41,914 nucleotides of DNA from an uncultured Verrucomicrobiota bacterium (GTDB taxonomy: Bacteria; Verrucomicrobiota; Verrucomicrobiia; Limisphaerales; UBA9464), in assembly GCA_903907995.1 (NCBI GenBank), contig CAIVQH010000021.1, positions 1 to 41,914 on the forward strand, in the 5' to 3' direction. The notes under the pieces are model-generated. The model was not told the origin of the DNA and ran no database searches. It saw only the letters and a list, made by a program, of their open reading frames with translations. The translations under genes and the position numbers were made by a program. This document shows positions 1,498 to 24,072 of the stretch, piece after piece (position 1 is the stretch's first letter; every line of letters starts with the position of its first letter).

Positions 1498-4400
1498 TCA
1501 ATGCGCCCCGTCGTGCTCGCGGATGTATTCCTGCTTCAGGCCGAGGGCTTCCGGGGCGTGGAGGACGAGCATCTTCATGCGGATGTCCGCCGGGACCTCG
1601 CGGGCGGTGAGTTTGGAGACGATCACCATCAGTGTGATGGCGAGCGGGACGGCCCAGATGGCGGGCTGCTCGGAGAGGATGCGCAGAAGCGGATGCGCGG
1701 CCCAGAAGTCGGTGAGGGCATAGGGCTTCAGCGTGGCGAACCAGCCCGGCTCGGGCACACCCAGTGATTTGAACTTCGCCGCCTGCGCGGTGAAGAAGGT
1801 GGTCCAGCTCGCGACCGAGATCGCAGCGACCGCACACAGTCCGCCGGTGAGCATGCCCGTGGCCGCGCCGCGCGTGGTCATGCCGCGCCACCACACGCTC
1901 ATGAAGAGCAGGGGGAAGTAGCTCGCGGCAGCGATGGCGAAGGCCTGGCCGACCATGAAGTTGATCTCGAAGTTCTCGACCAGTGTGCCCAGCAGCACCG
2001 CCACGAGGCCGATGGCCACGGCGCACCACTTGAACATCTGCATCCGCTCCGCCGCCGTGCTCTTGGGCCGCAGGATCCGCCCATACACATCGTGCGCGAG
2101 CGCACCGGTCATGGAGACGAGCAGGCCGGAGAAGGTGGACATAAAGGCTGCGAACGCACCGGCACAGGTGATGCCGCTGAGCACGGAACCCAGCACGCCG
2201 AAGCGTTCGTTCAGGATCGTGGGCAGCTTGAGCACAAGACCGTCGGTACCGCCCACGCCGGCGCCCTCGTACAGCGAGGGCATGAGGTTGCGTCCCAACG
2301 CGCCAAACACTGGCGGGAAGACGTAGAAGATGCCGATGAGGATCATCACCCACATAGTCGTGCGCTTGGCGGCCGCGCCGTCGGGGTTGGTGTAGAAACG
2401 GACCAGGATGTGGGGAAGTCCGGCTGTCCCGCACACCAATGCGATGATGAGCGAGTAGGTGTAGAGCAGGGCGTATGGCTTCGCGTTGATCGGCGTGATG
2501 ATCGCGTCCTTGGTCAGGAAGGCCTTGAAGACGTTGCCGGGCTCGCGGAGGACGGTGATGCCGTTGGTAGTGAGCAGGGAGCGCAGCTTGGTGAGCCGTT
2601 CCGTGATGTTTGAAAAGCTGATGGTGGGCTGTTTGATATTCTGCTGCATCAATGCTGGCGCGTAAGTCAGCACATAGTTGTTATTGAAGTTCCCCGGTTC
2701 GGAAACCAGGATGTTGCGCGCATAAATGTTGGCCAGATCGATTGCTGAAATCTGACCTTCGGGCCAGGAGCCGGGTGTTTCAGCGCGTTCAAGTTTGAAA
2801 GCCAAAAACCCTAGTGTCGATTTGAGATCCTGGCCGAGCGGGACCGCCTTGTTGGTTTCCATTTCGCCATGAAATTCAATTTTTGGCAGTGCCGCCTTGG
2901 CGGCCTTGGTGGTCAGTGGCCCGAACGGGTTCAGCCACGTCTCGTCCTTGGGCGCCTTGGCCGTCAGCGGCTGGCGGGAGACGGAACCAGGGCTGCTGGG
3001 CGTGTTCGCCAGCCCATTGGCGATGTTCCGGTTCCAGACGATTTGTCCCGCCGCATCTGGTAGATTCACATGCCGGTCACCAATGCGCACGATGACGGAA
3101 TGGTAAGAAACGTTGGTCATCAGGGACAGGCCGTTGGTGTCGGCGCCCTTTGTGCCAGCGGCGATCTTGGCGAGATCGCCAGGTGTGGTGATCATCGCGA
3201 ACCCGACACTTGCTCCGGGAGCCAGTGTCATTGATGGGGCCGGGACCTTGGGTGCGGTTGAATTGGATGCAATTTCCTCCACAGCCAGCGCGGCGAAGTA
3301 GGCATCAAGTTTCTTGGTTTCAATGGCGCGGAAATGATCTTCGCCGACCGGCACCAGGGTGATGCCGTTCCCGGCGAGCCCCTTTTCCATCGCCTGCTTC
3401 AACAGCGCAGCGGAATCCCGCTCTCCGTGAACCGTGATCAGAACCCCGTTAAACTTGTGCGGGTCCAAAAGATCTTGCCGGTTCAGTTGACCGTCGAGGA
3501 TCCGGTCCAGTTTGCCCGAAACCTCGGCCTGCCCCGGCAACAGCGTCCGCTTGACGTAGCTCTCGTATAAACCCAGAACCTGAGCAGCGGGAACATTCTG
3601 AAGTTCCATCATGGCTCCGCCAACGCCCGAGGGGAGAGGGATGTCGGTCATCGATTGACGGACCGTCACCGACTGGCGAATGGTTTCGGGACCGTAACCC
3701 TCTTCGGGTTTCACACCCATCGTCGCAGGCTGACCTTTTTCCGCCTGAGCCGGACGAAACTCGATGCCGTAGTTCGCGGCATTGGCGGTGGGCACGAGTT
3801 TGTAATACTCAGGGGTGATATGGAACAGCATCAGTCCGTTGTCGGCCAGGACTTGGGCGATGTGCTGGTCGAACTCATCGCGTGTCAGTGGACCCGACTG
3901 CGAATAGGCGATCCGATGGTTGAGGAGACCAGGTGCCGTATAGCCCGAGACGCTTTTGACGCCCCACTGCCATACGTGGCTCTGCGTGTAGTTCAGGAGG
4001 ATGTCCGCCACAGTGTACGACCCTGCCGGCATCGATACGCTCATCCTCCGTTCTTTCCCGCGAAGGTCGGTCCAGAGATTTTTCCAGCCCGGAAGATTCC
4101 CTCGGGACATTCCCCCGTCATAGACATACAGATTCTCGTCTGGGAGTCGGCCATTGCGGCCGGGCACTGGTCCCACATGGATGGCAACCATCGCCTCGCT
4201 GGCCCTCGTAGCCTCGTGGCTACCGCTGCCATTCACGCCCAACTGCTTCCCGTAACTGCCATACACGCTCATCAGCACGAACACCGGCACCGAGATCGCG
4301 AACATCTTCGCCCAATATTGAAAGGCCTGCACCAGCGTGATGCCCTTCATGCCGCCGAGGGCGACGTTGAGCGTGATGACCGCGCCGACCAGCACCACGC

Positions 4401-4899
4401 CGACCCAGTAGGGCAGGCCCTTGTGGCCCATGAAATCGATGTCCTTGAAGATGTAGGCGAGCGTGGTGCCCGCGCCCTTCATCTGCGGCATGGTATAGAA
4501 AAAGCCGATGAACAGGACGAAGATGACCGCGATCTTGCGGAAGACCGGCGAGTCGTAGCGGCCCTCGGCGAAGTCGGGAATTGTGTAGGCCCCGAAGCGG
4601 CGCAGCGGCCCCGCGATGAACAGCAGGAGGAACAGGTAGCCGCAGGCGTAACACACCGGATACCACAGTGCATCGTACCCGCTCGACATCACCATGCCCG
4701 CGACGCCCATGAACGACGCGGCACTTAGATACTCACCCGAGATGGCGGAGGCGTTCCAGCCCACGCTCACGCCGCGGCCCGCCACGAAGAAGTCCGCCGC
4801 CGACTTGGACTTCCGCGCCGCCCAGAAGCCCATGAAAACCGTCACGACGACCGTGATGGCGCTGAACGCGAGGATGTACGGATCGACCAGAGCAAGCAT
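1498..4899 (-). CDS. actP: ActP-type sodium:solute symporter with a ~585-residue insertion in a periplasmic loop
   Basis: The protein has 1133 residues, against about 550 for cation/acetate symporters. The N-terminal part (1-218) has six membrane helices and SSS-family motifs (AGRGVSVGWNASAISGEYLSAASFMG). The family sequence resumes at about 804 (LALVCGTAGLPHILVRFYTNPDG follows) and runs to the end with the remaining helices. Residues 219-803 are foreign to the family. They hold three similar modules at about 297-372, 430-527 and 714-799. Each starts with an LL..Y or IDLANIY helix and ends in NGITLV followed by an aromatic and a basic residue, as in secretin N domains. The insertion lies between TM6 and TM7, a periplasmic loop in ActP. 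The frame is open throughout, so this is a real fusion and not a broken gene. The DUF485 gene upstream supports the acetate or short-chain-acid symporter call; the substrate is not proven. Confidence 0.9.
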   Translation of the reverse strand: MLALVDPYILAFSAITVVVTVFMGFWAARKSKSAADFFVAGRGVSVGWNASAISGEYLSAASFMGVAGMVMSSGYDALWYPVCYACGYLFLLLFIAGPLRRFGAYTIPDFAEGRYDSPVFRKIAVIFVLFIGFFYTMPQMKGAGTTLAYIFKDIDFMGHKGLPYWVGVVLVGAVITLNVALGGMKGITLVQAFQYWAKMFAISVPVFVLMSVYGSYGKQLGVNGSGSHEATRASEAMVAIHVGPVPGRNGRLPDENLYVYDGGMSRGNLPGWKNLWTDLRGKERRMSVSMPAGSYTVADILLNYTQSHVWQWGVKSVSGYTAPGLLNHRIAYSQSGPLTRDEFDQHIAQVLADNGLMLFHITPEYYKLVPTANAANYGIEFRPAQAEKGQPATMGVKPEEGYGPETIRQSVTVRQSMTDIPLPSGVGGAMMELQNVPAAQVLGLYESYVKRTLLPGQAEVSGKLDRILDGQLNRQDLLDPHKFNGVLITVHGERDSAALLKQAMEKGLAGNGITLVPVGEDHFRAIETKKLDAYFAALAVEEIASNSTAPKVPAPSMTLAPGASVGFAMITTPGDLAKIAAGTKGADTNGLSLMTNVSYHSVIVRIGDRHVNLPDAAGQIVWNRNIANGLANTPSSPGSVSRQPLTAKAPKDETWLNPFGPLTTKAAKAALPKIEFHGEMETNKAVPLGQDLKSTLGFLAFKLERAETPGSWPEGQISAIDLANIYARNILVSEPGNFNNNYVLTYAPALMQQNIKQPTISFSNITERLTKLRSLLTTNGITVLREPGNVFKAFLTKDAIITPINAKPYALLYTYSLIIALVCGTAGLPHILVRFYTNPDGAAAKRTTMWVMILIGIFYVFPPVFGALGRNLMPSLYEGAGVGGTDGLVLKLPTILNERFGVLGSVLSGITCAGAFAAFMSTFSGLLVSMTGALAHDVYGRILRPKSTAAERMQMFKWCAVAIGLVAVLLGTLVENFEINFMVGQAFAIAAASYFPLLFMSVWWRGMTTRGAATGMLTGGLCAVAAISVASWTTFFTAQAAKFKSLGVPEPGWFATLKPYALTDFWAAHPLLRILSEQPAIWAVPLAITLMVIVSKLTAREVPADIRMKMLVLHAPEALGLKQEYIREHDGAH

Positions 4900-4904: not shown

Positions 4905-4940
4905 GGATTTAATTTGGAAAACAGGAAAGCAGGAAAAAGA
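4905..4940. repeat. 36-bp direct repeat, copy 1 (in front of the symporter start)
   Basis: This is identical over 36 bases to 5369-5404. It lies five bases from the symporter ATG (4899). The core on the plus strand is GGAAAACAGGAAAGCAGGAA. The two copies bracket the GxxExxY gene. Confidence 0.9.
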
Positions 4941-4954
4941 CAGGGCAGGGGGAT

Positions 4955-5362
4955 TTAGCGAATGGCTCCGGCTTCCGATTTTGCGGGTTCGACGTGTTCA
5001 CGTCCGACACGTTTGATGGTGAGTGGGATGGCGGCGAAATTGAGCAGCAGCCCAGTTTCCAATCGGGCCGCTTTTAGGTAGGAACGGACGGTGGCGAAAA
5101 ATATCAGTTCCAACTCAGTCACTGCCTTGAGTTCTACAACTACCGCTTCCTCCACCAACAAATCCAAGCGATGCTCGCCGACTGTCTGGCCGCGATATTC
5201 GATGGGGACGCTCTTTTGCCGTTCGAACCGTAGTCCGGAAGCGGTCATTTCCACTGCCAGTGCCTGTTCGTAGACCGACTCCAGAAATCCCGGCCCCAAC
5301 GCCTTATGCACGCTGATCGCGGCTGCGATTATCCGGCTGGTTAGTTGGTCGTGGTGAAGCAT
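4955..5362 (-). CDS. GxxExxY protein (PD-(D/E)XK-like, PDDEXK_3)
   Basis: This encodes 135 residues. The naming motif is present as GPGFLESVYEQAL near residue 23. A nuclease-like core follows, HRLDLLVEEAVVVELKA (around 64-80), which gives the D...ExK arrangement of the PD-(D/E)XK fold. The family is widespread and uncharacterised. It is often carried as a small insertion, for example inside rRNA genes or between operon genes, and nuclease activity is inferred from the fold only. Here it splits the DUF485-symporter pair and is flanked by exact 36-bp repeats, which suggests it arrived as a unit. It may be co-transcribed with its neighbours. Confidence 0.88.
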   Translation of the reverse strand: MLHHDQLTSRIIAAAISVHKALGPGFLESVYEQALAVEMTASGLRFERQKSVPIEYRGQTVGEHRLDLLVEEAVVVELKAVTELELIFFATVRSYLKAARLETGLLLNFAAIPLTIKRVGREHVEPAKSEAGAIR

Positions 5363-5368
5363 CTGAAG

Positions 5369-5404
5369 GGATTTAATTTGGAAAACAGGAAAGCAGGAAA
5401 AAGA
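5369..5404. repeat. 36-bp direct repeat, copy 2 (in front of the GxxExxY start)
   Basis: This copy is identical to 4905-4940. It lies six bases from the GxxExxY ATG (5362). A diverged inverted relative (GGAAAACAGGAAAACCGGAA on the minus strand) lies at about 5416-5452 and encodes the last residues of the DUF485 protein. Confidence 0.9.
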
Positions 5405-5415
5405 AGGGGGACGGT

Positions 5416-5748
5416 TCAGTTTCTGTTCCGGTTTTCCTGTTTTCCAGATTCAACTTCTCTTACTTCTGAGTTTTCGAGCGCGATGGAGCGGCGGATGAAG
5501 ACCCAGGCGATCACCCAGACGAAGGGGAAGAACAGCACTCCGAGGATCAGCCAGGTGAGGGTGAAGCCGCCGACGCGCGTGGCCATGGCCTCGGGCTGGA
5601 AGTAGTTCAGGAGCGGCAGGGCCAGCAGGGCGAGGAGGAAGGTGCCGGCGCAGGCGACGGACAGGCGCAGTTGCCGGCGCTTGAGGCGCGCCAGAAATTC
5701 TTCCGAGTGGATATCGGCGGTCGCTGGGTTTGGGGCAGGGGCTGGCAT
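5416..5748 (-). CDS. DUF485 domain membrane protein (YjcH-like)
   Basis: This encodes 110 residues with two membrane helices (about 29-50 and 61-87) separated by a short loop (YFQPEAMATRVGG), as in the DUF485/YjcH family. That family is normally encoded directly upstream of ActP-type symporters, and its role is probably accessory to the transporter. Here the GxxExxY insertion separates the pair by about 515 bases. The C-terminal tail, rich in E, N and R, is encoded by the inverted copy of the flanking repeat. The natural C-terminus may therefore have been altered when the element inserted. Confidence 0.85.
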   Translation of the reverse strand: MPAPAPNPATADIHSEEFLARLKRRQLRLSVACAGTFLLALLALPLLNYFQPEAMATRVGGFTLTWLILGVLFFPFVWVIAWVFIRRSIALENSEVREVESGKQENRNRN

Positions 5749-5813
5749 GGCGAGAGCCTGCCAAGCGTTCCGGGCGCCGACAATCCCCGTCTAACAATCA
5801 GAGCAATGAAACG

Positions 5814-5844
5814 AAAAAGAGCGCGGACGTGAACGTCCGCGCTC
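5814..5844 (-). terminator. Rho-independent terminator after gyrA
   Basis: Read on the minus strand, a perfect 12-bp stem (5833-5844 with 5819-5830, two-base loop) is followed by TTTTT (5818-5814). It lies about 25 bases beyond the gyrA stop. Its stem begins GAGCGCGGAC, so it also belongs to the dispersed hairpin family seen at 1358 and 40616. Confidence 0.88.
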
Positions 5845-5869
5845 CCTTCGTTGATCGAATGATCTGGGC

Positions 5870-8506
<2,637 letters not shown>

Positions 8507-8509
8507 GGA

Positions 8510-8953
8510 CTAAAGGGAGTCGGTAGGGAGATGGTCGGGAAAGAGCGGGATTTTCAGATGTTGGGCGGCTGCGCGAAGCCGCCGATCCGTTGCGGCCAGG
8601 GGAAAATCTGTACCCAGCTCGCATGTCACCAGGTGAATGGCATCCAGGGTCCGCAACGGAACGGAGGGATGGCAGCGCGACAGTGTGAGCGGGACACGGC
8701 GGAGCACATTGGAATTGAGCGGGTCGAGTCGGATCGTCTGGTCGGCCACCCAGGTTTCAAACTGTGTCCACGCCGCCTCCCGTTCTTCACGCCGGATCAG
8801 GCCATGCCGTTCCTTGGCAAACAGGGCCGCAGAGACCTCCCCGAAGGCCAGTTCCGAGGAACTGATCGGTTCGTTTTGCAGCCGTTGCTCGAACTCGCCG
8901 CTGTCGGGTTCGGGCGTCAGGAGTTTTACCAGGATGGCGGAGTCGCAATACAT
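8510..8953 (-). CDS. PIN-domain toxin (VapC-like)
   Basis: This encodes 147 residues. The PIN fold is recognisable from the N-terminal acidic residue in MYCDSAILVKL (D4), a Glu in the SSELAFGEVSAAL helix, the LRTLDAIHL motif (about 100-108) and the final AATDRRL. These supply the acidic metal-binding site of VapC-type ribonucleases, which cleave RNA, often tRNA, when the antitoxin is lost. It starts nine bases after the antitoxin stop and ends three bases before gyrA, so it lies inside the gyrase operon. VapC toxins act on RNA; nothing here shows that it acts on gyrase. Confidence 0.85.
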   Translation of the reverse strand: MYCDSAILVKLLTPEPDSGEFEQRLQNEPISSSELAFGEVSAALFAKERHGLIRREEREAAWTQFETWVADQTIRLDPLNSNVLRRVPLTLSRCHPSVPLRTLDAIHLVTCELGTDFPLAATDRRLRAAAQHLKIPLFPDHLPTDSL

Positions 8954-8962
8954 GCGGAGTTA

Positions 8963-9208
8963 TCAGCGGTCCTCGCGGCCTTCGCTGACAAGCTGGGTGG
9001 AGTCGGGACCACCCCGCCAGGGAATGCGCTTCAAGTGCTCCGGGATGCCGGTGAAGACCTTGCGGGACGCAGTAGGTTCCCAAGGCACCAAGCGCGCCTT
9101 GGGACGACCGTCCGAGGTGATAAGGATCTCACCCCCGGCGGCCACTTTGTCGAGCAGCGAAGACAAGTTGGCCTTGGCCGTGCGTACCGATACAGATTCG
9201 TTTTCCAT
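8963..9208 (-). CDS. Phd/YefM-family antitoxin
   Basis: This encodes 81 residues. The N-terminal half (VSVRTAKANLSSLLDKVAAGGEILIT, then a GRPKARLVP strand) is the DNA-binding Phd/YefM fold. The C-terminal 35 residues are the presumed toxin-neutralising tail. It precedes the PIN toxin by nine bases in the usual antitoxin-first order. A perfect 20-bp palindrome immediately upstream is a good autoregulatory operator. The gyrB stop is 44 bases upstream. I chose ATG 9208 because the fold begins directly there and the palindrome lies just outside. Confidence 0.85.
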   Translation of the reverse strand: MENESVSVRTAKANLSSLLDKVAAGGEILITSDGRPKARLVPWEPTASRKVFTGIPEHLKRIPWRGGPDSTQLVSEGREDR

Positions 9209-9215
9209 GCGGTAA

Positions 9216-9235
9216 TGTAGTCACGCGTGACTACA
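9216..9235. promoter_or_regulatory. Perfect 20-bp palindrome, likely antitoxin operator
   Basis: TGTAGTCACGCGTGACTACA equals its own reverse complement. It lies seven bases upstream of the antitoxin ATG, inside the gyrB-antitoxin gap. Phd/YefM antitoxins bind such sites to repress their own operon, so it probably marks a separate toxin-antitoxin promoter within the gyrase operon. Confidence 0.7.
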
Positions 9236-9252
9236 AAAGTCAAAGCGCACCA

Positions 9253-11796
<2,544 letters not shown>

Positions 11797-11844
11797 TTAC
11801 CAGCCAAGGGCAGGGGGACAATAGGAAAGTCCTCCTTTAACGCG

Positions 11845-11874
11845 AACGGCTCCCCAACATCTTGGGGAGCCGTT
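11845..11874. terminator. 13-bp stem hairpin after the sigma-factor operon
   Basis: Bases 11845-11857 pair perfectly with 11862-11874 around a four-base loop (CATC). It lies about 25 bases beyond the stop at 11900 and upstream of gyrB. There is no strong U-run on the minus strand, so it may be a terminator of modest efficiency or an RNA-stabilising structure. Confidence 0.6.
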
Positions 11875-11899
11875 TAGCGTGAAACCAAACAGGTTGTGG

Positions 11900-12379
11900 T
11901 CAGGGGGCGGCCGTGATGATCACGAACCAGGCATTGTCCCACGTTTCCTTGTCATCGCCGGCGAGGATGCACAGCTCGCCTTTCTTCAGGGCCTCGATGG
12001 AGTGCTGGACAACCTTGACCCGCTTGGGTTCGGCTCCCGTCTTGAGGTCAAGGAGGCGGATCTCCACATTGCCGTTGCCCAAGTCCTTCAGTTCGACCGC
12101 ACCCTTGTCGCTCAGGGAGACTTTTTTGTGCTCCTTGGCGTTGGCGTCGGTGGAGCACTGGTTGACCACCCAGTAGTGCTTCCATTTGAACTGGTGCAGC
12201 TTGGCGCGGGTCTTGTCGTCGATCTCCTGCCAGTCCTTGCCGGGTGGCTTGTCCTGATCGGTGCCCCAGACGAGCCGTGTTTGCAGCTTCAAATCGGCGG
12301 CCAAAGTGGTGGCGGACAGCAGGAAGACACCAGAAAGCCAGAGGGCGAGCATGCCCCAGCACCGAACAAATATGCGCAT
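11900..12379 (-). CDS. Small secreted protein of unknown function, third gene of the ECF sigma operon
   Basis: This encodes 159 residues. A signal peptide is clear: basic start MRIFVRCWG, hydrophobic core and an ATTLAAD cleavage site near residue 28. The mature part is short, lysine-rich, with alternating strands and two cysteines (NQC, GELC), and has no domain I recognise. It follows the anti-sigma gene by about 50 bases and precedes a hairpin, so it is likely the last gene of that operon. It could be a periplasmic effector or sensor of the sigma/anti-sigma pair; this is inferred from position only. Confidence 0.7.
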   Translation of the reverse strand: MRIFVRCWGMLALWLSGVFLLSATTLAADLKLQTRLVWGTDQDKPPGKDWQEIDDKTRAKLHQFKWKHYWVVNQCSTDANAKEHKKVSLSDKGAVELKDLGNGNVEIRLLDLKTGAEPKRVKVVQHSIEALKKGELCILAGDDKETWDNAWFVIITAAP

Positions 12380-12428
12380 AAAGTGATTTCCGCCGCCTCT
12401 GATTAGGGAAACCGGACCAATTTCGCAA

Positions 12429-12887
12429 TCAGTTAATCCAATGGACGGTCACACCGTCCGCGTCGGACCGGTAAGTCAGCGAGCTGGCTTCCGTCTGGCT
12501 CGAATCCACGTTGGTCGCAACTTCCTTGACGCTGGGCAAGGCGGTCTGTTGCAGCGTCACGGCCACGGCCACGGCGGCCACACCGACCGCCGGAACGAGC
12601 CAGCGGAGCCAGGACGAGAGTCCTGGCTTGGGGTTGGCGGCGTGAGCGGCGGCCCTTGCCTCCTGCTCGATACGCCGCTGAATCTGCGACCAGTAGAACT
12701 CGCGCGTGTCGGCCACCTGGCCGATCGGCTCGTGAGCCCGGATGACCTGGCGCATGGCGCTCAGTTCGCGATGCAACGTCGCCGCCTCGGTGTCAGCCGC
12801 CAGCAGGCGCTGCACATCGGCCCGACGACCGGTGGCCAGTTCGCCATCGACCAGCGCCATGATTTCCAACATTTGCTCACTGCTCAT
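12429..12887 (-). CDS. Membrane-anchored anti-sigma factor
   Basis: This encodes 152 residues. The N-terminal 85 residues are a helical cytoplasmic domain (EIMALVDGELATGRRADVQRLL, then a helix around REFYWSQIQRRIEQEA), which fits an anti-sigma domain. One membrane helix lies at about 93-112 (WLVPAVGVAAVAVAVTL). A short outside tail ends in VTVHWIN. No zinc-binding HxxxCxxC motif is present, so it is not a ZAS-type factor. It starts ten bases after the sigma stop, the normal arrangement for an ECF sigma and its inhibitor. Confidence 0.8.
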   Translation of the reverse strand: MSSEQMLEIMALVDGELATGRRADVQRLLAADTEAATLHRELSAMRQVIRAHEPIGQVADTREFYWSQIQRRIEQEARAAAHAANPKPGLSSWLRWLVPAVGVAAVAVAVTLQQTALPSVKEVATNVDSSQTEASSLTYRSDADGVTVHWIN

Positions 12888-12897
12888 AACGTTCCTT

Positions 12898-13506
12898 TCA
12901 CTCTTTGCGCTCCCGCTTCAAACCCTGCAACAGCGACGCCATGCGCCGCCGGGCATAGAACAGCCGTGACATCACGGTACCAATGGAGATGCCAACCCGT
13001 TTGGCGATCTCCTTGTATTCCAGCCCTTGAAATTCATGGAGCGCGAGGACGGTCCGATGGGCTTCGGTAAGCTTTCCCATCGCCTCATCAATGCGTTTCC
13101 GTAACTCGTCATTCTCTAACCCTTCGGTCGGGTTCGCATGCTCAATCGGCATGTGCCGCTCGACTCCACCCAAATCCTCCTCCATCTGCTCGATGGATTC
13201 GGCCCGCATCTTCTTCTGACGGCGAATCTGATCCAGGCACAGGTTGATGACGATCCGCGTCATCCACGTGGCAAAGGACGATTCGCCCTGAAACTGATGC
13301 AGCCTCTGCCACGACTTAACCCACGCTTCCTGAGACAGATCCAACGCCTCTTCCTCATTCCGCATCATCATCAGTGCCCGGGCAAAAATCTTGTCCCGGT
13401 GCCGGAATACCAGTTGCTCGAAGGCTTCGGTGTCGCCTTCGCGCGACCAGCCGACCAACTGTTCATCAGTTGCGGAAGGATAGTCATTTTTCAACGACAT
13501 AGGCAT
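12898..13506 (-). CDS. ECF (group 4) RNA polymerase sigma factor
   Basis: This encodes 202 residues, typical for an ECF sigma. Region 2 (about 23-95) shows FEQLVFRHRDKIFARALMMM, then DLSQEAWVKSWQRL and the FATWMTRIVINLCLDQIRRQ helix. Region 4 (about 140-195) shows LTEAHRTVLALHEFQGLEYKEIAKRVGISIGTVMSRLFYARRRM. It directs polymerase to a stress- or envelope-type regulon and is presumably held by the downstream membrane anti-sigma. ATG 13500 is an alternative start. Neither has a Shine-Dalgarno sequence. Confidence 0.93.
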   Translation of the reverse strand: MPMSLKNDYPSATDEQLVGWSREGDTEAFEQLVFRHRDKIFARALMMMRNEEEALDLSQEAWVKSWQRLHQFQGESSFATWMTRIVINLCLDQIRRQKKMRAESIEQMEEDLGGVERHMPIEHANPTEGLENDELRKRIDEAMGKLTEAHRTVLALHEFQGLEYKEIAKRVGISIGTVMSRLFYARRRMASLLQGLKRERKE

Positions 13507-13578
13507 GGACGCAGGTGCTCAGCGACTATTCAGCGATCTTTTCGCGGGATACTCCCAGGGGTGACATTGCGGAAACAT

Positions 13579-14241
13579 TTATAACTTACCTTTCGAACTG
13601 GGGATTTGGTCGGCAATGCGGGGATCGCGCTGGCACGCAAAGTCCACCGCCTTGGCGAACGCCTTGAACAGGCATTCCACGACGTGATGCGGCTCCCCGC
13701 CGTAGAGCAGCTCCAGGTGCAGGTTGCATTTGGCCTCATTGGTGAAGCCCTGAAAAAACTCCCGGGCGAGCCCGAAGCGGAAGGCGGAGGACATATCTTG
13801 AATCTTGTCGGCCAACGGGATGCGACGTTGGGACAACTCGTCCATCCCGCGCCAGACCAAATAAGGGCGACCGCTGAAATCGATGACGCACCGGGCCAGG
13901 CATTCATCCATGGGCACATGGGCTTCGCCGGTGAAGGGATTCCGGGGATCGAAACCGCTGCCGTAGCGCCGGATGCCCCGTTTGTCGCCCAAGGCCTGCA
14001 AAAACGCCTGGCCAAGGGCAATCCCGCAGTCCTCCACCGTGTGATGGGCGTCGATGTGCAGGTCGCCTTTGCAACGGAGCTTCAGGTCGCAGACCGAGTG
14101 CTTGGCAAAGGCCGTCAGCATGTGGTCGAAAAAGCCGAGGCCGGTCTTCACCACGGCCTTGCCCTTGCCGTCGATGTTCAACGTCAGGGCGATCTCAGTC
14201 TCGGAGGTGACGCGTCGGAGGGACGCGGTGCGCGAAAGCAT
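13579..14241 (-). CDS. hisB: Imidazoleglycerol-phosphate dehydratase
   Basis: This enzyme converts imidazole glycerol phosphate to imidazole acetol phosphate in histidine synthesis. It has 220 residues and is the monofunctional type with no phosphatase domain. The metal-binding motifs are FFDHMLTAFAKH, DAHHTVEDCGIALGQAF, VPMDECLAR and GGEPHHVVECLFKAFAKA. ATG 14241 puts MLSRTASLRRVTSETEI at the start, as in the family; the longer open frame to 14427 only adds non-homologous residues. An extra stretch of about 12 residues (FDPRNPFTGEAH) sits between RRYGSG and VPMDE, where the family normally has two or three. No other his gene is in the window. Confidence 0.93.
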   Translation of the reverse strand: MLSRTASLRRVTSETEIALTLNIDGKGKAVVKTGLGFFDHMLTAFAKHSVCDLKLRCKGDLHIDAHHTVEDCGIALGQAFLQALGDKRGIRRYGSGFDPRNPFTGEAHVPMDECLARCVIDFSGRPYLVWRGMDELSQRRIPLADKIQDMSSAFRFGLAREFFQGFTNEAKCNLHLELLYGGEPHHVVECLFKAFAKAVDFACQRDPRIADQIPSSKGKL

Positions 14242-14328
14242 GGGGAAAGCTAGGCGCAAGGTTTGCACCGCCAACAAGGTTTTTGTTTGACGTCTTGGCG
14301 GTTCAGACGGGCAATCACGGCCGACACC

Positions 14329-14416
14329 ATGAACGTACGCGCATTCTTTGCCACCCTTTTGGCCTTCGCCTGCCTGCTTGCGGGCGGCTGCGCCACCAAC
14401 CAAACAAAGCGCCCCC
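14329..14416 (+). other. Lipoprotein signal peptide out of frame with the NIPSNAP gene
   Basis: ATG 14329 opens a frame that encodes a classic lipoprotein leader, MNVRAFFATLLAFACLLAGGC, followed by ATNQTKRP. The NIPSNAP coding frame begins at ATG 14417, shifted by one base. The switch falls at a run of five C (14412-14416). With four C the leader would read straight through into PMPDTRVYELR. This is either a real frameshift or an error in a homopolymer. Confidence 0.6.
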
Positions 14417-15121
14417 ATGCCGGACACCCGAGTTTACGAACTGCGCGTCTACACCTTCAATCCCAGCAAGAAGGAGGACCTCCTGAACCGCTTCCGGAAC
14501 CACACGCTGCGACTCTTCAAGAAGCACGGTGTGGAGAGTGTGGGCTACTGGCTGCCTGTGGATGCGTCGGACAACCGCCTGCACTTCCTCCTGCGCTATC
14601 CGAGCCGTGAGGCCCGCGAGGCTTCCTGGAAAGCCTTTATGGCTGACCCTGACTGGCAGGATGCCTACAAGGCGAGTGAGGCGAACGGTGCGCTGCTGGC
14701 GAAGCCGCCCGAGAACTTCTTCCTGCAGGCCACCGATTTCTCTCCGGCCGTGCGGACAGGGGACGTCACTCACGGAGGCGTGTTTGAACTGCGGACCTAC
14801 ACCACACCGACGGGCGTGCTGCCCAATCTGGACGCCCGCTTCCGCGACCACACCGTGGCGCTGTTTGCGAAGCACGGCATCAACAACTACGGCTATTTCC
14901 ACCGCATGGCCGACCAGCCGGCCGCAGAGACGACACTCCAGTACATTGTGACCCACAAGTCCAAGGAAGGCGCCGCCGCCGCGTTTGGCGAGTTTGGCAA
15001 GGATCCCGATTGGGTTGCCGCCAAGAAGGCCAGCGAAGAGAAGGCGGGCGGTTCGCTGACTATCCAAGGCGGCGTGAAGTCGGTATTCCTCGCCCCACTG
15101 GATTTCTCGCCGACGAAGTAA
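14417..15121 (+). CDS. NIPSNAP-family protein, two domains, probably a lipoprotein
   Basis: This encodes 234 residues from ATG 14417. Two tandem NIPSNAP domains are visible: VYELRVYTFNPSKKEDLLNRF through DPDWQDAYKAS (about 5-85), and VFELRTYTTPTGVLPNLDARF through DPDWVAAKKAS (about 118-210). The fold is a dimeric ferredoxin-like alpha/beta barrel. Family functions are poorly known. The original gene most likely starts at 14329 with a lipoprotein leader that is now one base out of frame, so this start would give a cytoplasmic protein. It is divergent from hisB, with 87 bases between the outer starts. Confidence 0.8.
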   Translation: MPDTRVYELRVYTFNPSKKEDLLNRFRNHTLRLFKKHGVESVGYWLPVDASDNRLHFLLRYPSREAREASWKAFMADPDWQDAYKASEANGALLAKPPENFFLQATDFSPAVRTGDVTHGGVFELRTYTTPTGVLPNLDARFRDHTVALFAKHGINNYGYFHRMADQPAAETTLQYIVTHKSKEGAAAAFGEFGKDPDWVAAKKASEEKAGGSLTIQGGVKSVFLAPLDFSPTK

Positions 15122-15143
15122 CTCTGGGAACGGAGAAAAGCTC

Positions 15144-15219
15144 GGTGGGACAAGCGTCCTCGCGAGCCGGGCTGCCTCAAACGTGGGTAGCTTCGGCTCG
15201 CGGGGACGCTCGCCCCACC
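15144..15219. repeat. Imperfect 26-bp inverted repeat
   Basis: Bases 15144-15169 and 15194-15219 are reverse complements at 23 of 26 positions, with a 24-base spacer. The outer ends read GGTGGG and CCCACC. It lies 22 bases after the NIPSNAP stop and may end that transcript. The length and imperfection suggest a dispersed intergenic repeat and not a simple terminator. Confidence 0.7.
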
Positions 15220-15348
15220 CGGCGATGGGTTTTCCCGGGTGGCTCGCTACTTACGTTGTCTCCGTACGGTCATCCCACGATCGGATTGTCACGACGTCAC
15301 TGAATCGTCTTGTTTCGGCCTCTGAGGCTGAACACCTTGTCCCCAGCC

Positions 15349-16092
15349 ATGGCGGCCGAGACGCTGATCATAGTCCCCACCTACAACGAGCGGGAGAATC
15401 TCCCGCAGTTGGTGAAGCGTCTCATGGCCCAGCCGGTCACGCTGGATGTGCTCGTCGTGGATGACAATTCGCCGGACGGCACTGGCCAGCTGGCCGACGA
15501 GATTGCAGCGACCAATCCCCATGTCCATGTCCTGCATCGGGAGTTGAAGCAGGGGCTTGGGCGGGCCTATATCGCCGGTTTCAAGTGGGCCCTGGCGCAC
15601 GGGTACGAGTTCATCTTCGAGATGGACGCAGATTTTTCGCACAATCCCGCCGACATTCCCAAGTTCCTCGAGGCGGCCAAGGCCGAGGATGCCGACCTCG
15701 TGCTGGGCTCCCGCTACAAGGGGGGCATCCGGGTGATCAACTGGCCGCTCAACCGGCTCGTGCTGAGCATCGGAGCGGGCAAGTATGTGCGCACGATCAC
15801 CGGAATGCAGGTCACCGATCCCACGGGTGGTTTCAAGTGTTTCCGCCGCCGCGCGCTTGCGTCCCTGCAGCTCGATTCTGTGCAGAGCAACGGTTACAGC
15901 TTCCAGATCGAGCTGACGCACCGCATCTGGCGGCGCGGGGGAAAAATCGCCGAGGTGCCGATCATTTTCACCGACCGGCTTTTGGGTACCTCCAAGATAT
16001 CCAAGGACATTGTCCATGAGGCACTGTGGATGGTCTGGAAGCTGTGGTGGCAAAACGGCCTGCACCGTTCGCCGCAGCCGCCGGAGGAGTGA
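15349..16092 (+). CDS. Polyprenol monophosphomannose synthase-like glycosyltransferase (GT2)
   Basis: This encodes 247 residues. It opens with LIIVPTYNERENLPQLV and has DVLVVDDNSPDGTG, FEMDADFSHNP (the DxD metal site) and TDPTGGFKCFRRRAL, the standard signatures of DPM1/dolichol-phosphate mannosyltransferases. These transfer mannose or a related sugar from a nucleotide donor to a polyprenyl phosphate on the inner face of the membrane. No C-terminal membrane helices are present, as in the short soluble type. I chose ATG 15349 because the Rossmann strand follows within four residues; ATG 15310 adds 13 unrelated ones. Polyprenyl-phosphate glucosyl or other sugar specificity is possible. Confidence 0.9.
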   Translation: MAAETLIIVPTYNERENLPQLVKRLMAQPVTLDVLVVDDNSPDGTGQLADEIAATNPHVHVLHRELKQGLGRAYIAGFKWALAHGYEFIFEMDADFSHNPADIPKFLEAAKAEDADLVLGSRYKGGIRVINWPLNRLVLSIGAGKYVRTITGMQVTDPTGGFKCFRRRALASLQLDSVQSNGYSFQIELTHRIWRRGGKIAEVPIIFTDRLLGTSKISKDIVHEALWMVWKLWWQNGLHRSPQPPEE

Positions 16093-16103
16093 GTTCCTTC
16101 TGA

Positions 16104-16262
16104 TCAATCTGGAAGAAGCCGTCGCAAAAATTTCCCATTTAACTGATGGTGAGCGGTTGCGATGAAACGGATGCGGTGACGGGCAGCAAGGTGGGTGACG
16201 TCCAAGGCCGTCTCCACAGCTTCAATGAAGATGTGTGAGGGAAATTCCGTGCGGGTGTCCAT
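16104..16262 (-). CDS. Possible small protein of 52 residues
   Basis: A minus-strand frame starts at ATG 16262 and stops at 16104, in the otherwise empty gap between the glycosyltransferase and the hydrolase. It reads as a plausible helical, His- and Arg-rich protein (FIEAVETALDVTHLAARHR, then FIATAHHQLNGKFLRRLLP). It has no Shine-Dalgarno sequence and no homologue I recognise. It could be chance or the remnant of a larger gene. Confidence 0.22.
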   Translation of the reverse strand: MDTRTEFPSHIFIEAVETALDVTHLAARHRIRFIATAHHQLNGKFLRRLLPD

Positions 16263-16279
16263 GTCGGGTTGAAGACGTC

Positions 16280-17482
16280 ATGCATGAACATCAAAATCGC
16301 GAACGATCGCGTAACTGTTGGTTCGTTGCCGCCGCCATTGCTGCCCTGATTCTTGGGGCGATCTTTTCCCGCGTGATTGACCCGGGCGTTCGCGTCAAAA
16401 AAGTGATGCTGGGCACAAACACACCCGCGCTTCGACTTTTCCCCACCGAGCCCGGTCCATATCCCATTGCACTCCTCGCTCATGGAAACGTCGGCTCAAA
16501 AGAGATGCTCTTCCGCTTCGGTGAAGCGCTCGCCGCCGCTGGCTTTGATTGTTACTCCGTGGATCAGGCTGGTTATGGAGAATCGCCGCGACCCTGGTCC
16601 CTCACTAACATCCTGCTCCATTTCCAGGAGAGTGAGCGCACACTTGGAACGGTGGACGTCTTTATCGGGCATTCGATGGGAGGTGGTGTTGGCGCCTGGA
16701 CCGTGCTCAACGCGGGATTTCGCCCCAGGCTTTTTATTGGGATGGGCGCCCCGGTCGAATTGGGCGAACACGGGCCGCAACTGCTCTGGTTGGCGGGTTT
16801 GTTTGATGAAATTTATCGACCTGCCCGGTTGCGAGCGCAAACGAATGCCCAGGTCGTCATCTCTCCATGGTCCGACCACATCCTCGAAACCTATGATCCC
16901 GTGCTCGCGAGGGCCGCGGCCACAGCCGCATGCGCTGCCGTTGGCAAACCGGTCCCCGCCGCTCCGACCGCGTGGAGATGGCGATTGGTCGGGCTTGTGC
17001 TGGGAATGGCAGGTGCGTTGCTCCTTATGTTTCGCCTGCCTGAACTGCATCCTGCCCTGGCACGCATTCGCGGATACATTGTTCCCGCCGTTCTGCTGAT
17101 CGCTCTCGGCCTGACGCTGGGCACGTGGACGAGTGTGACGCCGCAGTTGCGTCGCCTCCCTCAACAGCTGGTTCTGCTGCCCGCAATCTGGATGGCACTC
17201 GCCGGCCTCAACAGACTGCACCTGCCACGCTGGGGCCTGCCTGTGGTCACCGGGATATTGGCGCTCGGCTGCCTGGCGCTTCAGTTTGCCTTCGCGGAGG
17301 TGACCACAGTCTGGCTTTTTGCCACTCTCGTGTGCACCTTTGTGATCGGCGCGCTGCTGTTGTTGTCGGGCGCGCTGGTCGGTCGAATCGCCACTCGTGG
17401 CGGGGCGAGGCGTGACGGCGACATCGCCATGACGATCTTCGCGGGTTATGCCATCGGGCAATTCATGCCACTATTCTACTGA
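16280..17482 (+). CDS. Alpha/beta hydrolase fused to a multi-pass membrane domain
   Basis: This encodes about 400 residues. After one N-terminal membrane helix (about 15-33) comes an alpha/beta hydrolase domain with ALLAHGNVGSKEM (oxyanion region), VDQAGYGES and the nucleophile elbow GHSMGGG. A candidate catalytic histidine lies in SPWSDHILETYDP. From about residue 235 there are five or six further membrane helices up to the C-terminus. A hydrolase with a membrane tail of this size is uncommon; the substrate is unknown and may be a lipid or membrane-bound ester. I chose ATG 16280; an upstream ATG at 16235 adds 15 non-homologous residues. Confidence 0.75.
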   Translation: MHEHQNRERSRNCWFVAAAIAALILGAIFSRVIDPGVRVKKVMLGTNTPALRLFPTEPGPYPIALLAHGNVGSKEMLFRFGEALAAAGFDCYSVDQAGYGESPRPWSLTNILLHFQESERTLGTVDVFIGHSMGGGVGAWTVLNAGFRPRLFIGMGAPVELGEHGPQLLWLAGLFDEIYRPARLRAQTNAQVVISPWSDHILETYDPVLARAAATAACAAVGKPVPAAPTAWRWRLVGLVLGMAGALLLMFRLPELHPALARIRGYIVPAVLLIALGLTLGTWTSVTPQLRRLPQQLVLLPAIWMALAGLNRLHLPRWGLPVVTGILALGCLALQFAFAEVTTVWLFATLVCTFVIGALLLLSGALVGRIATRGGARRDGDIAMTIFAGYAIGQFMPLFY

Positions 17483-17608
17483 AACCCCCGCCTGAAATCT
17501 CCTGGCAATGTGACGCAGCTCTTCGTGCAATTCGCCGGCCGGAGCCGCGAGATTTTCGCCAAGTCGGACACTGAGCATTTTCAAAGCCAATCCCGTCAAA
17601 ATGCCGCA

Positions 17609-17630
17609 GCGCCAAGCCGGCGCATTTTTT
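17609..17630 (+). terminator. Rho-independent terminator downstream of the hydrolase
   Basis: GCGCC (17609-17613) pairs with GGCGC (17619-17623) around AAGCC, followed by A and six T (17625-17630). It lies 127 bases after the hydrolase stop and upstream of the DUF4252 gene. Confidence 0.6.
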
Positions 17631-17718
17631 CTGCAACTATTGGAACGGCTGCCGTGTGTTGAGGGGGCCTGGACGCGAAAATCCCGGTGAACAAAATCAA
17701 CATCAACGCCACGCCTCC

Positions 17719-18339
17719 ATGAAACAAACGCTTCGCACCACCCTCGCCGCCGTTGCCCTTTCCGTGTCGCTGGGACTCGCCGCCCGCGCTGAAAAGTCCT
17801 CCTCGGGTTCCATCGACTTCGGCAAGTTCACGCCTCCCTCTTCCGGCGGTGAATTTGTGGAGGTCAACCTCAAGGGCAATCTCCTCTCGATGGTCGCCGG
17901 CATCGCCGGCAAGGAAGAACCCGAAGTCGCCGACTTGCTGAAGGGGCTCGAAGCCGTGCGGGTCAACGTCATCGGCCTGGATGATTCCAACCGCAAGGAG
18001 ACGGAGGCGCACGTCCAGAGCATCCGTACCGAGCTGGAAAGCAAGGGCTGGGAGCGGATCGTGACCGCGAAGGAGAAGGATCAGGATGTGGGGGTTTACC
18101 TCCGCACCCGGGGCAAGGAGGCCATCGCCGGACTGGTGGTCACCGTGATCGAAGGCGGCAAAGAGGTGGTGCTGGTCAACGTCGTCGGCGACATCCGTCC
18201 CGACCAGCTCAACGCGCTCGGCGACAAGCTCGACATTGAGCCGCTGAAAAAGCTGCACGCCGTCACCCACAAGGAGAAGGAGGACAAGGACGGGGAGAAG
18301 TCTTCGGAACCGAAGGAGAAATCGACGGAGCAGAAGTGA
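17719..18339 (+). CDS. DUF4252-domain exported protein
   Basis: This encodes 206 residues from ATG 17719. The start has a signal peptide (MKQTLRTTLAAVALSVSLGLAARAE). The mature region shows the DUF4252 pattern: FVEVNLKGNLLSMVAGIA, a central LLKGLEAVRVNVIGL, then LESKGWERIVTAKEKDQDVGVYLR and a final strand in VVLVNVVGDIRPDQL. The C-terminal 40 residues are a charged K/E/D-rich tail. The function of the family is unknown. A longer frame to 17656 would place residues ahead of the signal peptide and is unlikely. It is followed after 30 bases by a related gene. Confidence 0.85.
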   Translation: MKQTLRTTLAAVALSVSLGLAARAEKSSSGSIDFGKFTPPSSGGEFVEVNLKGNLLSMVAGIAGKEEPEVADLLKGLEAVRVNVIGLDDSNRKETEAHVQSIRTELESKGWERIVTAKEKDQDVGVYLRTRGKEAIAGLVVTVIEGGKEVVLVNVVGDIRPDQLNALGDKLDIEPLKKLHAVTHKEKEDKDGEKSSEPKEKSTEQK

Positions 18340-18369
18340 TGTCTGGCCGGATCCGCCAAAGCGAACCCC

Positions 18370-19017
18370 ATGACTACTCCCACCGACCCCGCAGCACCGC
18401 GGTCACCCTTTCGTTGGCGCCGCTTTTTGATCGGCGCGATCATCGTGCTGGGAGTTTCGCCGTTCGTGCTGGTCGGGGCGCTGGCGCTGCTGGTTTACAG
18501 CAGCCTGCACGTCGGATCGGATGTGGCCGCCCTGCGCCGCAGCGCGATGCCGGCCTCGGCGGAAGGTTGGCACAAGCAGGTGGAGATCAGCGTGGGCTGG
18601 CTGCCGGTGTTCCTAGCCAAGACGGGGCTTCAGTTTGCCCGGCTCGATCCGGAAGCCCGGATCGCCCTGCGCGCCGCCAAGAGCGGTGAGGTGGCGGTCT
18701 ATCAGCGCCCGGCACACGACCGCCAGTCGGACCATTCCCGCATCCTGGCCGATGCGGACCAGACCATGCAGCGACGCGGCTGGGAGCGGGCTGTGGGCGT
18801 GGTGGATCGGGATGACCTGGTGGCCGTGTATGTTCCCACCGGGCTCAGCTCAGTCCGCAACGTGAAGGCCTGCGTGCTGGTGCTGGACCGGGAAAATCTG
18901 GCGGTGGTCTCCGCCACAGCGGACCTGCGGCCCCTGATGGAGCTGATCCGCGAACGGCCCGAATGGCGCGAGCACCTGCACCCGCACCACGAGGTCGTCG
19001 CGACGGCGGAAAATTGA
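18370..19017 (+). CDS. Membrane-anchored relative of the preceding DUF4252 protein
   Basis: This encodes 215 residues. There is one membrane helix near the N-terminus (about 18-43, FLIGAIIVLGVSPFVLVGALALLVY). The soluble part parallels the upstream protein. MQRRGWERAVGVVDRDDLVAVYV matches ESKGWERIVTAKEKDQDVGVYL, and NLAVVSATADLRPLMEL matches EVVLVNVVGDIRPDQL. The pair therefore probably arose by tandem duplication, one copy exported and the other membrane-tethered. They are co-directional with a 30-base gap. Function unknown. Confidence 0.7.
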   Translation: MTTPTDPAAPRSPFRWRRFLIGAIIVLGVSPFVLVGALALLVYSSLHVGSDVAALRRSAMPASAEGWHKQVEISVGWLPVFLAKTGLQFARLDPEARIALRAAKSGEVAVYQRPAHDRQSDHSRILADADQTMQRRGWERAVGVVDRDDLVAVYVPTGLSSVRNVKACVLVLDRENLAVVSATADLRPLMELIRERPEWREHLHPHHEVVATAEN

Positions 19018-19092
19018 AGCGTGCTCTCGCTTCGGCGAGATCACGGCTAGGAGACGGTCGGCACTGGTCGCATAGGGACCGGTGCCGGCCTT

Positions 19093-19488
19093 TTACTTTT
19101 TGGCCGGCTTCGAGGGCGCGGACTTCGGAAAGATCGCCGGAAAGGATTCCTTGTTGCGCCAGAGCAGGAAGAGTGACAGCGCGCCAAAGACGAGCGCGAT
19201 CGGCAGGCCGCTGCGTTCCAGAAACAGGTGGAAAAGGACGATGTTTACGACCACCGGCCCCAGCAACGTGAGCCCGAGCGGCACGCGATTGATCAGCAGG
19301 AGCAGACCACCGACGAGTTGGAGGCCGGCGACCACCCAGAAGTATTTGCTCGCCATCAGGGCGTGCGTGAATTCCCCGGCCAGGCCGGTGGGCATCGGAC
19401 CCTTGATGAAATTAAGGAATCCGTTCAGGCCGAAGACGACAAAGCCGAGTCCAAGGAGGATGCGGGTGAGGAAGGCGAGGATTTTCAT
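19093..19488 (-). CDS. DoxX-family membrane protein
   Basis: This encodes 131 residues with four membrane helices. It contains the DoxX pattern RILLGLGFVVFGLNGFLNF at the start and FWVVAGLQLVGGLLLLI in the middle. DoxX proteins are small membrane proteins of uncertain function, linked in some bacteria to oxidative stress or quinone-related redox partners. It is alone between the DUF4252 pair and the MFS gene. There is no Shine-Dalgarno sequence. Confidence 0.85.
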   Translation of the reverse strand: MKILAFLTRILLGLGFVVFGLNGFLNFIKGPMPTGLAGEFTHALMASKYFWVVAGLQLVGGLLLLINRVPLGLTLLGPVVVNIVLFHLFLERSGLPIALVFGALSLFLLWRNKESFPAIFPKSAPSKPAKK

Positions 19489-19560
19489 GGAGAGAGAGGT
19501 GACGTTCGGTATGCTTATTACTATGCGAATCGTTCGGCGTCCACTGCGAGTGTCTTCATC

Positions 19561-19629
19561 CTAATCCTAATCGTAATCGTAATCGCCCTTGTTTCCGGCA
19601 GTTTCGATCAAGAGCAGGAGCAGGAGCAA
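19561..19629. repeat. Hexanucleotide repeats (CTAATC/GTAATC and GAGCAG)
   Basis: Bases 19561-19584 are four hexamers, CTAATC twice and GTAATC twice. Bases 19612-19629 are three more, GAGCAG twice and GAGCAA. They lie between DoxX and the MFS gene, in a gap with no gene. Such short-period tracts can vary in copy number by slippage. Confidence 0.65.
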
Positions 19630-19644
19630 GAAATTGCCAGCCGC

Positions 19645-20862: not shown

Positions 20863-20868
20863 CAAGGA

Positions 20869-23800: not shown

Positions 23801-24072
23801 GTCATCACGCCGTCGCTGGTCGCCTGGGAGAAGATGTAGAGTGAGTTCTCCACGCCGTTGAGCTGCTGCTCCAGCGGCACGGAGACTGTCTCCGAGATCG
23901 TCTTCGGGTTTGCGCCCGGATAGACGGCGCGCACGACGATCTGGGGCGGCACGACCTCGGGGTATTCCGAGATCGGCAGCTTGAACATCGCGATCAGGCC
24001 GATCAGGAAGATCAGCACCGAAAGCACGCCGGCGAAAATCGGCCGGCGGATGAAGAAGTGAGAAAAATTCAT
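20869..24072 (-). CDS. RND multidrug efflux pump, inner-membrane subunit (AcrB/MexF type, HAE1)
   Basis: This encodes 1067 residues, the HAE1 length. It starts MNFSHFFIRRPIFAGVLSVLIFLIG and has the EYPEVVPPQIVV porter region. The proton-relay aspartates lie in GIVVDDAIVVVENVERN (TM4). The protein is a trimer that takes hydrophobic compounds from the periplasm or membrane, driven by protons. It follows the adaptor gene by about 82 bases. No outer-membrane channel gene is in the window, so a TolC-like partner must be encoded elsewhere. Confidence 0.95.
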   Translation of the reverse strand: MNFSHFFIRRPIFAGVLSVLIFLIGLIAMFKLPISEYPEVVPPQIVVRAVYPGANPKTISETVSVPLEQQLNGVENSLYIFSQATSDGVMTLTVTFKLGTDIDKAQVLVQNRVSQALPKLPEEVRRLGVLTIKSSPDLTMVVHLTSDGRYDDIYVRNYATLQVKDVLARIPGVGQVQIFGSGDYAMRVWLDPNKVAARGLTAGDIVNAIREQNVQVAAGAVGQQPVASPVSVELQINTKGRLVTEEEFGDIIIKTGANGETTRLRDVARIELGAGEFALRSLLNNKSAAALPIFQQPGSNALELSKNVRAAMEQLKKNFPAGLDYSVVYDPTRFVEKSIEAVIHTLFEAIVLVVLVVILFLQTWRASIIPLVAVPVSLVGTFAVMMALGFSINALSLFGLVLAIGIVVDDAIVVVENVERNIALGFEPHEATRRAMNEVTGPIMATALVLCAVFIPTAFISGLTGQFYKQFAITIAISTVISAFNSLTLSPALCAILLKAHGSKKDLVTRGMDQALGWLFRPFNRFFEWSSAKYAAGVRRVIRGSLIALLVYAGLVLLTGKVFKSVPVGFIPEQDKQYLICVAQLPDAASLDRTDAVIRRMSDIALKIPGVVSSVAFPGLSPNGFTASPNSGIAFVTLDEFENRKAPKLSGSAIRDQLIQAFGAIQEARCLVIMAPPVNGLSTGGGFKMFIEDRNNLGMEALYGSTWGIIGQAYATNVLQGVYSTYQVNVPQLEADVDRVKAKSQNVPLSDLFETMQVYLGSLYVNDFNRFGRTYQVIVQADAPYRDRLDDIVRLKTRNSAGQMVQVGALVKVKESSGPDRVMRYNGYPAAEINGAPANGYSSGQAEAYIENLAKQSLPNGMSYEWTELTFQQRIAGNTAIYVFPLCLFLVFLVLAAQYESLSLPLAIILIVPMCLLCAMVGVMLKGSDNNIFTQIGLIVLVGLACKNAILIVEFAREKQHEGMGIVEAALEACKLRLRPILMTSIAFIAGVYPLVKSHGAGAEMRQAMGVAVFTGMIGVTVFGLFLTPVFYTVIMKLVAKVTGKKVEAPAHTPTPTTPPAAAPAHG

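Follow-up and report, generated by a model that had tools for sequence, protein, structure and literature searches.

What occupies the middle of the symporter gene in this DNA, and what such a segment might do for a carrier, are the questions raised by the locus. The window (the whole stretch analysed, 41,914 nucleotides) holds on its minus strand a stop-free ORF of 1133 residues (1498..4899), which matches the Pfam family SSF (PF00474) with 167.6 bits against a cut-off of 22.8. SSF is the sole Pfam family on the protein and is matched in two stretches that are contiguous along the profile, positions 1–172 and then 201–406, with the middle of the protein uncovered. The first stretch falls in the N-terminal membrane part of the core (residues 1–215; 4255..4899, minus) and the second in the C-terminal membrane part (residues 807–1133; 1501..2481, minus); between them lies a loop of 591 residues (216–806; 2482..4254, minus). 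An earlier note on this DNA had described a symporter of about twice the family length with an intact frame and both membrane halves, which agrees with these matches and with the lengths of the other SSF ORFs in the same genome (613–633 residues; a draft of 60 contigs, rated 95.67% complete).

The closest NCBIfam models are those for VC_2705, MctC and ActP, and every curated cut-off is missed: TIGR03648 (VC_2705 family) scores 278.5 against 320.75 bits, and the ActP models TIGR02711 and NF006903 score 203 against 1099 and 250.5 against 750 bits, so we label the symporter ActP-type and name no substrate. Judged from its sequence, the core is to be read as an intact SSF core of the ActP type, and it is probably an ordinary cation-coupled carrier with small carboxylates as its probable substrate class, given its likeness to ActP and the VC_2705 family and the DUF485 gene upstream (5416..5748, minus; PF04341, E 2.3e-11). 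The latter is the probable partner gene of the symporter, by analogy with yjcH-actP. A DUF485-like gene on the same strand, ending at most 1.5 kb upstream, accompanies 65 of the 75 symporter ORFs whose upstream sequence extends to 600 nt or more. In the window, the genes preceding the symporter on its strand are a PDDEXK_3 gene, the DUF485 gene, gyrA and gyrB, with a LysR gene on the downstream side.

SSF proteins have their N terminus outside, and the position of the expanded loop follows the sixth helix. With six helices before it, the insert would therefore be periplasmic. Against the roughly 13 helices of the SSF family, a simple scan found 12 hydrophobic segments, with one weak helix missed, as judged by eye. 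A full-length AF2 model (mean pLDDT 54.8) likewise shows strands and helices where the modules described below lie; its membrane part is poor and the model was left out of the topology reading, so that a periplasmic position of the modules is one that we infer from the helix count.

Three domains can be delimited in the loop, all on the minus strand: module A (residues 286–381; 3757..4044), module B (430–538; 3286..3612) and module C (718–804; 2488..2748), the last of which abuts the next helix directly. They are mutually homologous, with hhalign probabilities of 97.4 (A/C), 95.6 (A/B) and 92.9 (B/C), and correspond to the three similar modules that the earlier note had placed at about 297–372, 430–527 and 714–799. 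The note was also right that the whole insert sits in one loop between two helices, but its proposal that the short loop had been replaced does not hold, since the ancestral loop linker KAPKDETWLNPFGPLTTKAAKAA persists at residues 648–670 (2890..2958, minus) with modules flanking it on both sides. This linker, which in family loops takes the form KAPxDxxWLxPFGPLTTKAAKAA, is kept in all 97 distinct orthologous loops (90 match the pattern and seven have close variants). GC3 of the loop is below that of the core in 22/22 expanded genes and in 60/75 short-loop genes, so that codon use within the gene is uneven.

As a raw sequence, the insert found nothing useful in Pfam (no family at E ≤ 10), NCBIfam or PDB sequences; biosensor entries matched in the sequence search were taken as chance. 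A profile built from 20 symporter modules only (A1) was more informative. Against a six-frame translation of the window's own genome it matched, at E ≤ 10, the three modules themselves and one other place (1.1e-5), which is the N-terminal domain of GspD preceding its Secretin_N and Secretin domains. Among 39 genomes of the family, 29 contain an A1 match at E ≤ 0.01. The 41 matches listed there fall inside symporter ORFs in 16 cases and outside in 25; 20 of the latter were examined and comprise 18 secretins, one protein with six Secretin_N matches and one membrane-anchored single-module protein, and three of the remaining five are the same GspD domain. At the level of the order, 159 of 194 genomes have a match at E ≤ 0.001. 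Seventy loci from the module searches hold 71 module-bearing ORFs (47 secretins, 20 symporters and four others), or, with five duplicate loci removed, 66 distinct ORFs (45, 17 and four), a count that covers loci chosen from the family and order searches, with many order-genome matches lying outside it. The remaining four comprise two small membrane-anchored proteins, the six-Secretin_N protein and a GspD-like ORF truncated at a contig end. Pfam analysis of ten such proteins found PF00263 and PF03958 in 8/8 members of the GspD class, and a sub-threshold match to type_II_gspD_N0 (PF21305) where A1 matches in 6/8, none exceeding the cut-off. In GspD secretins here (L138 and other loci) the N0 domain sits behind a long proline-rich leader.

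Taken singly, the 20 symporter modules are, by their Pfam scores, too divergent for assignment: one touches the PF21305 model, at E 0.15 amid several chance families and short of the cut-off, and PF03958 (Secretin_N/N1) is not among the families matched at E ≤ 10. Comparison in the reverse direction is clearer. A profile of 31 GspD N0 domains matches 13/22 expanded inserts at E < 0.01 but 0/75 short loops and 0/462 shuffled or reversed decoy inserts, although the GspD set had been gathered with A1 and this test is not wholly independent of it; full independence holds for the Pfam matches and for the fold comparison. The two profiles align to each other with a probability of 98.3 (E 1.1e-14). 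A1 itself matches 20 of the 22 expanded inserts, 14 of which had contributed to it, and the two profiles jointly match 21/22 at E < 0.01; only the insert of L027 is matched by neither. Against PDB sequences at E ≤ 10, A1 has six matches, of which four are to GspD-type entries (E about 0.7), and a profile of B-type modules has one match, which is unrelated.

Structure prediction points to the same family. AlphaFold2 applied to the insert (18 sequences; mean pLDDT 60.6, pTM 0.35) gives confident islands that coincide with the three modules, joined by links of low confidence (249 of the 591 insert residues fall below pLDDT 50). Modules A and C are predicted as strand-helix-strand-strand-helix-strand-strand with a short extra helix, an order of strands and helices like that of the type II secretin N0 domain; in module B one middle strand is unformed. 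The first ten rows of a Foldseek search of the PDB are all entries with secretin N0 or STN-type domains, with a best E of 5.1e-3, none at or below 0.001, and unrelated folds from row 11. In VIA-align comparisons, where a Z under 8 alone may reflect a common arrangement, module A superimposes on XcpQ N0 with Z 8.3 (71 residues, rmsd 1.7), module B on LspD with Z 7.7 (rmsd 3.5) and module C on MxiD N0 with Z 6.3 (rmsd 2.5), and STN-type domains (FoxA, FecA, FpvA, PupB and PupR) match at lower Z, 4 to 5. The modules are thus predicted to have the N0 fold of two helices and about five strands. The likeness to small secretin domains seen in the earlier note stands as far as the periplasmic type is concerned, supported by profile searches in both directions, by the predicted fold and by structure comparison, but the domain is N0/STN and not Secretin_N/N1. 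That the protein is an intact symporter core with three GspD-N0-related domains in one loop is, on these combined comparisons, nearly certain.

Orthologues show how the loop is built up. A protein search gave matches at E ≤ 0.001 in 55/58 genomes, the window's own genome and distant SSF proteins included; in genome contigs there were 363 candidate stretches, 358 of which encode a relative, and the analysis went on with the best 80 of these. The loop was measured in ORFs holding both membrane parts, drawn from 134 loci. Of the 97 distinct orthologous loops so obtained, 75 have 59–101 residues and 22 have 160–591. In the 90 loops that match the linker pattern, lengths are stepwise: 11–22 or 124–163 residues after the linker and 25–71 or 159–442 before it, with extra sequence after the linker in 15 loops, before it in 14 and on both sides in seven. 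Drawing 193 genomes from the phylum yielded the carrier at E ≤ 1e-40 in 12, namely the window's own genome and 11 that belong to other orders of the class; in these 11 the two halves are 42–69 unmatched codons apart.

Five members of the window's genus have five different loops: A, B, linker and C in the window (G000); B, linker and C (G003); A, linker and C (G005); linker and C (G002); and an N-side insert with the linker (G004). A1 finds no module in the G004 symporter, so its N-side insert is not counted as N0-like. Module A is common to the window, L058 and L061, and module B to the window and L055. On a quick tree of 99 cores, which includes five added through the module search, the 27 expanded rows require at least 14 changes, among which gains are not separable from losses, and a single clade of expanded carriers is rejected (p-AU 7e-63). 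The fusion that the earlier note proposed to seek in other genomes is therefore found, with in-frame inserts carried by 21 other distinct orthologues whose assemblies are separate; the conserved insertion that it had expected is not, because the loop is expanded in only 22/97 and the module sets vary. Orthologues free of modules have an equally conserved core, which implies that the modules are dispensable for the core.

Small membrane-anchored proteins with a single N0 module and no symporter or secretin part also occur (L188, 4225–4914; L217, 1279–1902; L218, 1489–2202; L166, 848–1846). Stand-alone proteins with a B-type module were found in G151, G182 and G041. In G151 the gene (L188) follows the symporter on the same strand at a distance of about 260 nt; no symporter core was found in the 12.0 kb (G182) and 11.0 kb (G041) around the other two. 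An argument from fusion and fission was set aside, as the symporter adjoins in one case of three, an adjacency that does not argue for a complex shared by symporter and stand-alone module.

Between close species the module set of the loop is hypervariable, with the core nearly unchanged. The window and its nearest relative, G003, have symporter cores that are 99–100% identical (99% in the C-terminal membrane part; dS 0.40–0.43), aligned neighbourhood DNA that is 89–96% identical and GspD N0 domains that are 96% identical (dS 0.115). Across a hypervariable block delimited by DNA alignment of the two (2569..4224, minus), only the linker (2891–2977, 88.5%) and module B (3287–3653, 67%) align; G003 lacks module A, and its module C is 35% identical to that of the window, with 84% identity in the final 25 residues. 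Parts of 5400–25351 are uncovered by the alignment, and the intergenic stretch with the PDDEXK_3 gene (4906–5461) does not align either, G003 having a different small ORF instead, so the variability is not limited to the modules. A second pair, L060 (G002) and L062 (G004), has flanks 92–97% identical and GspD N0 domains 94% identical (dS 0.10); between the membrane parts the linker alone aligns, one member having a C-side module and the other the N-side insert along with a frameshift close to the linker. For L045 and L044, 92.6% nucleotide identity in the core accompanies 34% amino-acid identity in the insert.

As a control, 82 genes gave 29 pairs with third-position core identity above 0.68, pairs that share genes and are not independent. 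Aligned insert identity is 0.34–0.48 in the four pairs in which both loops are expanded and 0.54 in the one mixed pair, whereas loop identity is at least 0.77 in 22 of 24 short-loop pairs (0.52 and 0.57 in the other two). In all three of the close expanded pairs that could be computed, dS is higher in the insert than in the core (e.g. 1.72 versus 0.24), values (NG86) that come from poor alignments near or above saturation and are used only as "higher than flanks"; L074/L083 was not computable. In short-loop pairs, loop dS is near core dS in 7/8 computed, the exception being L090/L086 (1.09 versus 0.16). L056 and L059, a more distant expanded pair, have equal insert and core dS and an insert dN/dS of 0.18, which points to constrained, in-place evolution as another course open to a module. 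Replacement of the module block by recombination is, on this pattern, rather probable. No close donor for the window's modules was found among the 22 expanded inserts; its module C is 37.5% identical to that of its sister and 36.8–38.5% to more distant ones, the sister being no closer.

We propose, with a probability of about 0.5 for the reading as a whole, that an ordinary carrier bears N0 modules that serve in recognition or docking and that have diversified by gain, loss and replacement between conserved flanks and a conserved linker. The core would work like other SSF proteins. The modules would act as periplasmic protein-recognition or docking domains, as N0/STN domains do in GspD, VirB7 and TonB-dependent transducers, and may anchor the carrier to an envelope partner that itself changes, or shift the carrier's gating. 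The helix that follows the loop is the broken gating helix in LeuT-like folds; because module C ends at this helix, a bound partner could act on gating. A recognition or docking function, taken by itself, is a tentative assignment, which we rank above a loop with no selected role because N0 domains bind partners elsewhere: GspC binds the N0 domain of GspD (PMC3169554) and the N0 domain of VirB7 binds itself (PMC3093366). Counting against the reading are the failure to find the GspC family in this genome, the equally conserved core of module-free orthologues, the weak Foldseek E-values and sub-threshold Pfam scores of single modules, the L027 insert that neither profile matches, the poor membrane part of the full-length model and the variable stretch at 4906–5461 outside the modules.

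The main rival to recognition or docking is that secretin-related N0-type domains entered a tolerant periplasmic loop, where they drift, duplicate and are lost or swapped near-neutrally. It would account for the patchy distribution of expanded loops and the many changes on the core tree, for very fast divergence of the insert next to an unchanged core and for the lower GC3 of the insert, though most short loops have this too. We hold it somewhat less likely, and several observations speak against it. The dN/dS values of the L056/L059 insert and of module B between the window and L055 (0.35) point to constraint, the predicted folds are confident, and large in-frame domains are retained in a core gene. 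Furthermore, in close pairs the insert has a dS clearly higher than that of the flanks, which drift alone explains poorly, unreliable as dS is there. Doubtful, in our view, is a more specific account of the variability, by which the loop is a recognition cassette whose N0 blocks are swapped between lineages by recombination through the near-invariant flanks and linker. The driver would then be a fast-changing periplasmic partner or attacker, such as phage ejection proteins, contact-dependent toxins or a self-recognition partner, and the exchange of blocks would resemble that in surface receptors and specificity subunits elsewhere.

Homology of the modules to GspD N0, and the presence of GspD in the window's own genome, might suggest that the carrier is linked through them to the type II secretion apparatus, the modules taking a place in the GspD N0 ring, for instance, or closing it off. 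This is very unlikely: GspD N0 is nearly unchanged between the window and G003 where the symporter modules are almost wholly different, so that the expected co-variation is absent, GspD is present also in relatives with a short symporter loop, and the GspC family, the known partner of N0, was not found in the window's own genome by a search that was positive in control genomes (E. coli and Caulobacter vibrioides). An assembly chimera or an unrelated fold, which the earlier note had named as grounds against its own reading, is a negligible prospect despite the draft state of the genome and the low-confidence residues of the insert, given in-frame inserts in the 21 further orthologues from separate assemblies, the modules shared with L055, L058 and L061, and profile and fold evidence that agree on predicted islands matching N0 domains.

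Several known systems come close to this protein. The SSF symporters ActP, MctC and those of the VC_2705 family have the same two-half core and a DUF485 gene upstream and supply the nearest models, but here the curated cut-offs are missed and the loop carries three N0-type domains. Type II secretins (GspD, XcpQ, LspD; PF21305) have the closest N0 domain, with the predicted fold of the modules at Z of about 8 to XcpQ/GspD N0; in contrast to them, the symporter has no secretin domain (no Pfam match to PF00263) and no N1–N3 domains, its modules miss the PF21305 cut-off, and an inner-membrane carrier harbours N0 within one of its loops, as up to three or more copies. Compared with TonB-dependent transducers and PupR, the symporter lacks a TonB barrel or anti-sigma part, and the match is weaker than that to GspD N0.

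The known settings of N0/STN domains are outer-membrane and secretion machines together with the signalling proteins that partner them. N0 has likewise been added to a family usually without it in Xanthomonas VirB7 and DotD, outer-membrane lipoproteins of type IV secretion in contrast to the uptake carrier here, and the same report describes the N0 topology as confined to a limited group of proteins, each of which takes part in transport across the outer membrane (PMC3093366). Added domains on an SSF/SLC5 carrier have a parallel in SLC5-STAC-kinase fusions such as CrbS (PMC5715377); there a cytoplasmic kinase is joined through STAC, whereas here the domains lie inside a loop and Pfam matched no kinase domain in the symporter. 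In the literature searched, which left most subscription journals outside its scope, we found no description of a symporter with N0, STN or secretin domains, of its modular growth or of its block-like variability; N0 domain and symporter are each known, and the combination is what lacks a precedent there. The presence of one to several N0-type domains within a loop of an uptake carrier of the inner membrane widens the known range of N0/STN domains, and near-identical carriers with zero, one, two or three modules form a natural series for testing the effect of N0. Block-wise hypervariability beside an almost frozen carrier raises the question of a periplasmic driver.

Other features of these loci deserve mention. 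The gap between the DUF485 gene and the symporter holds a PDDEXK_3 gene in the window (4955–5362, minus) and in L065 (3502–3981), of the GxxExxY type, and a different small ORF in L055 (about 560–1060) and L062 (about 3500–3962), which we take to resemble a four-helix-bundle S23-type protein; two sorts of small accessory gene seem to swap at this one spot. Elsewhere in the window, a minus-strand open frame of 1614 residues without a Pfam match (31076–35920) could represent a genuine large protein or simply a frame left open in GC-rich DNA. At about 15128–15248 lies a short element of roughly 80–110 bases with dozens of matches in G003; often a single site is matched on both strands, as would be expected of a dispersed palindromic repeat.
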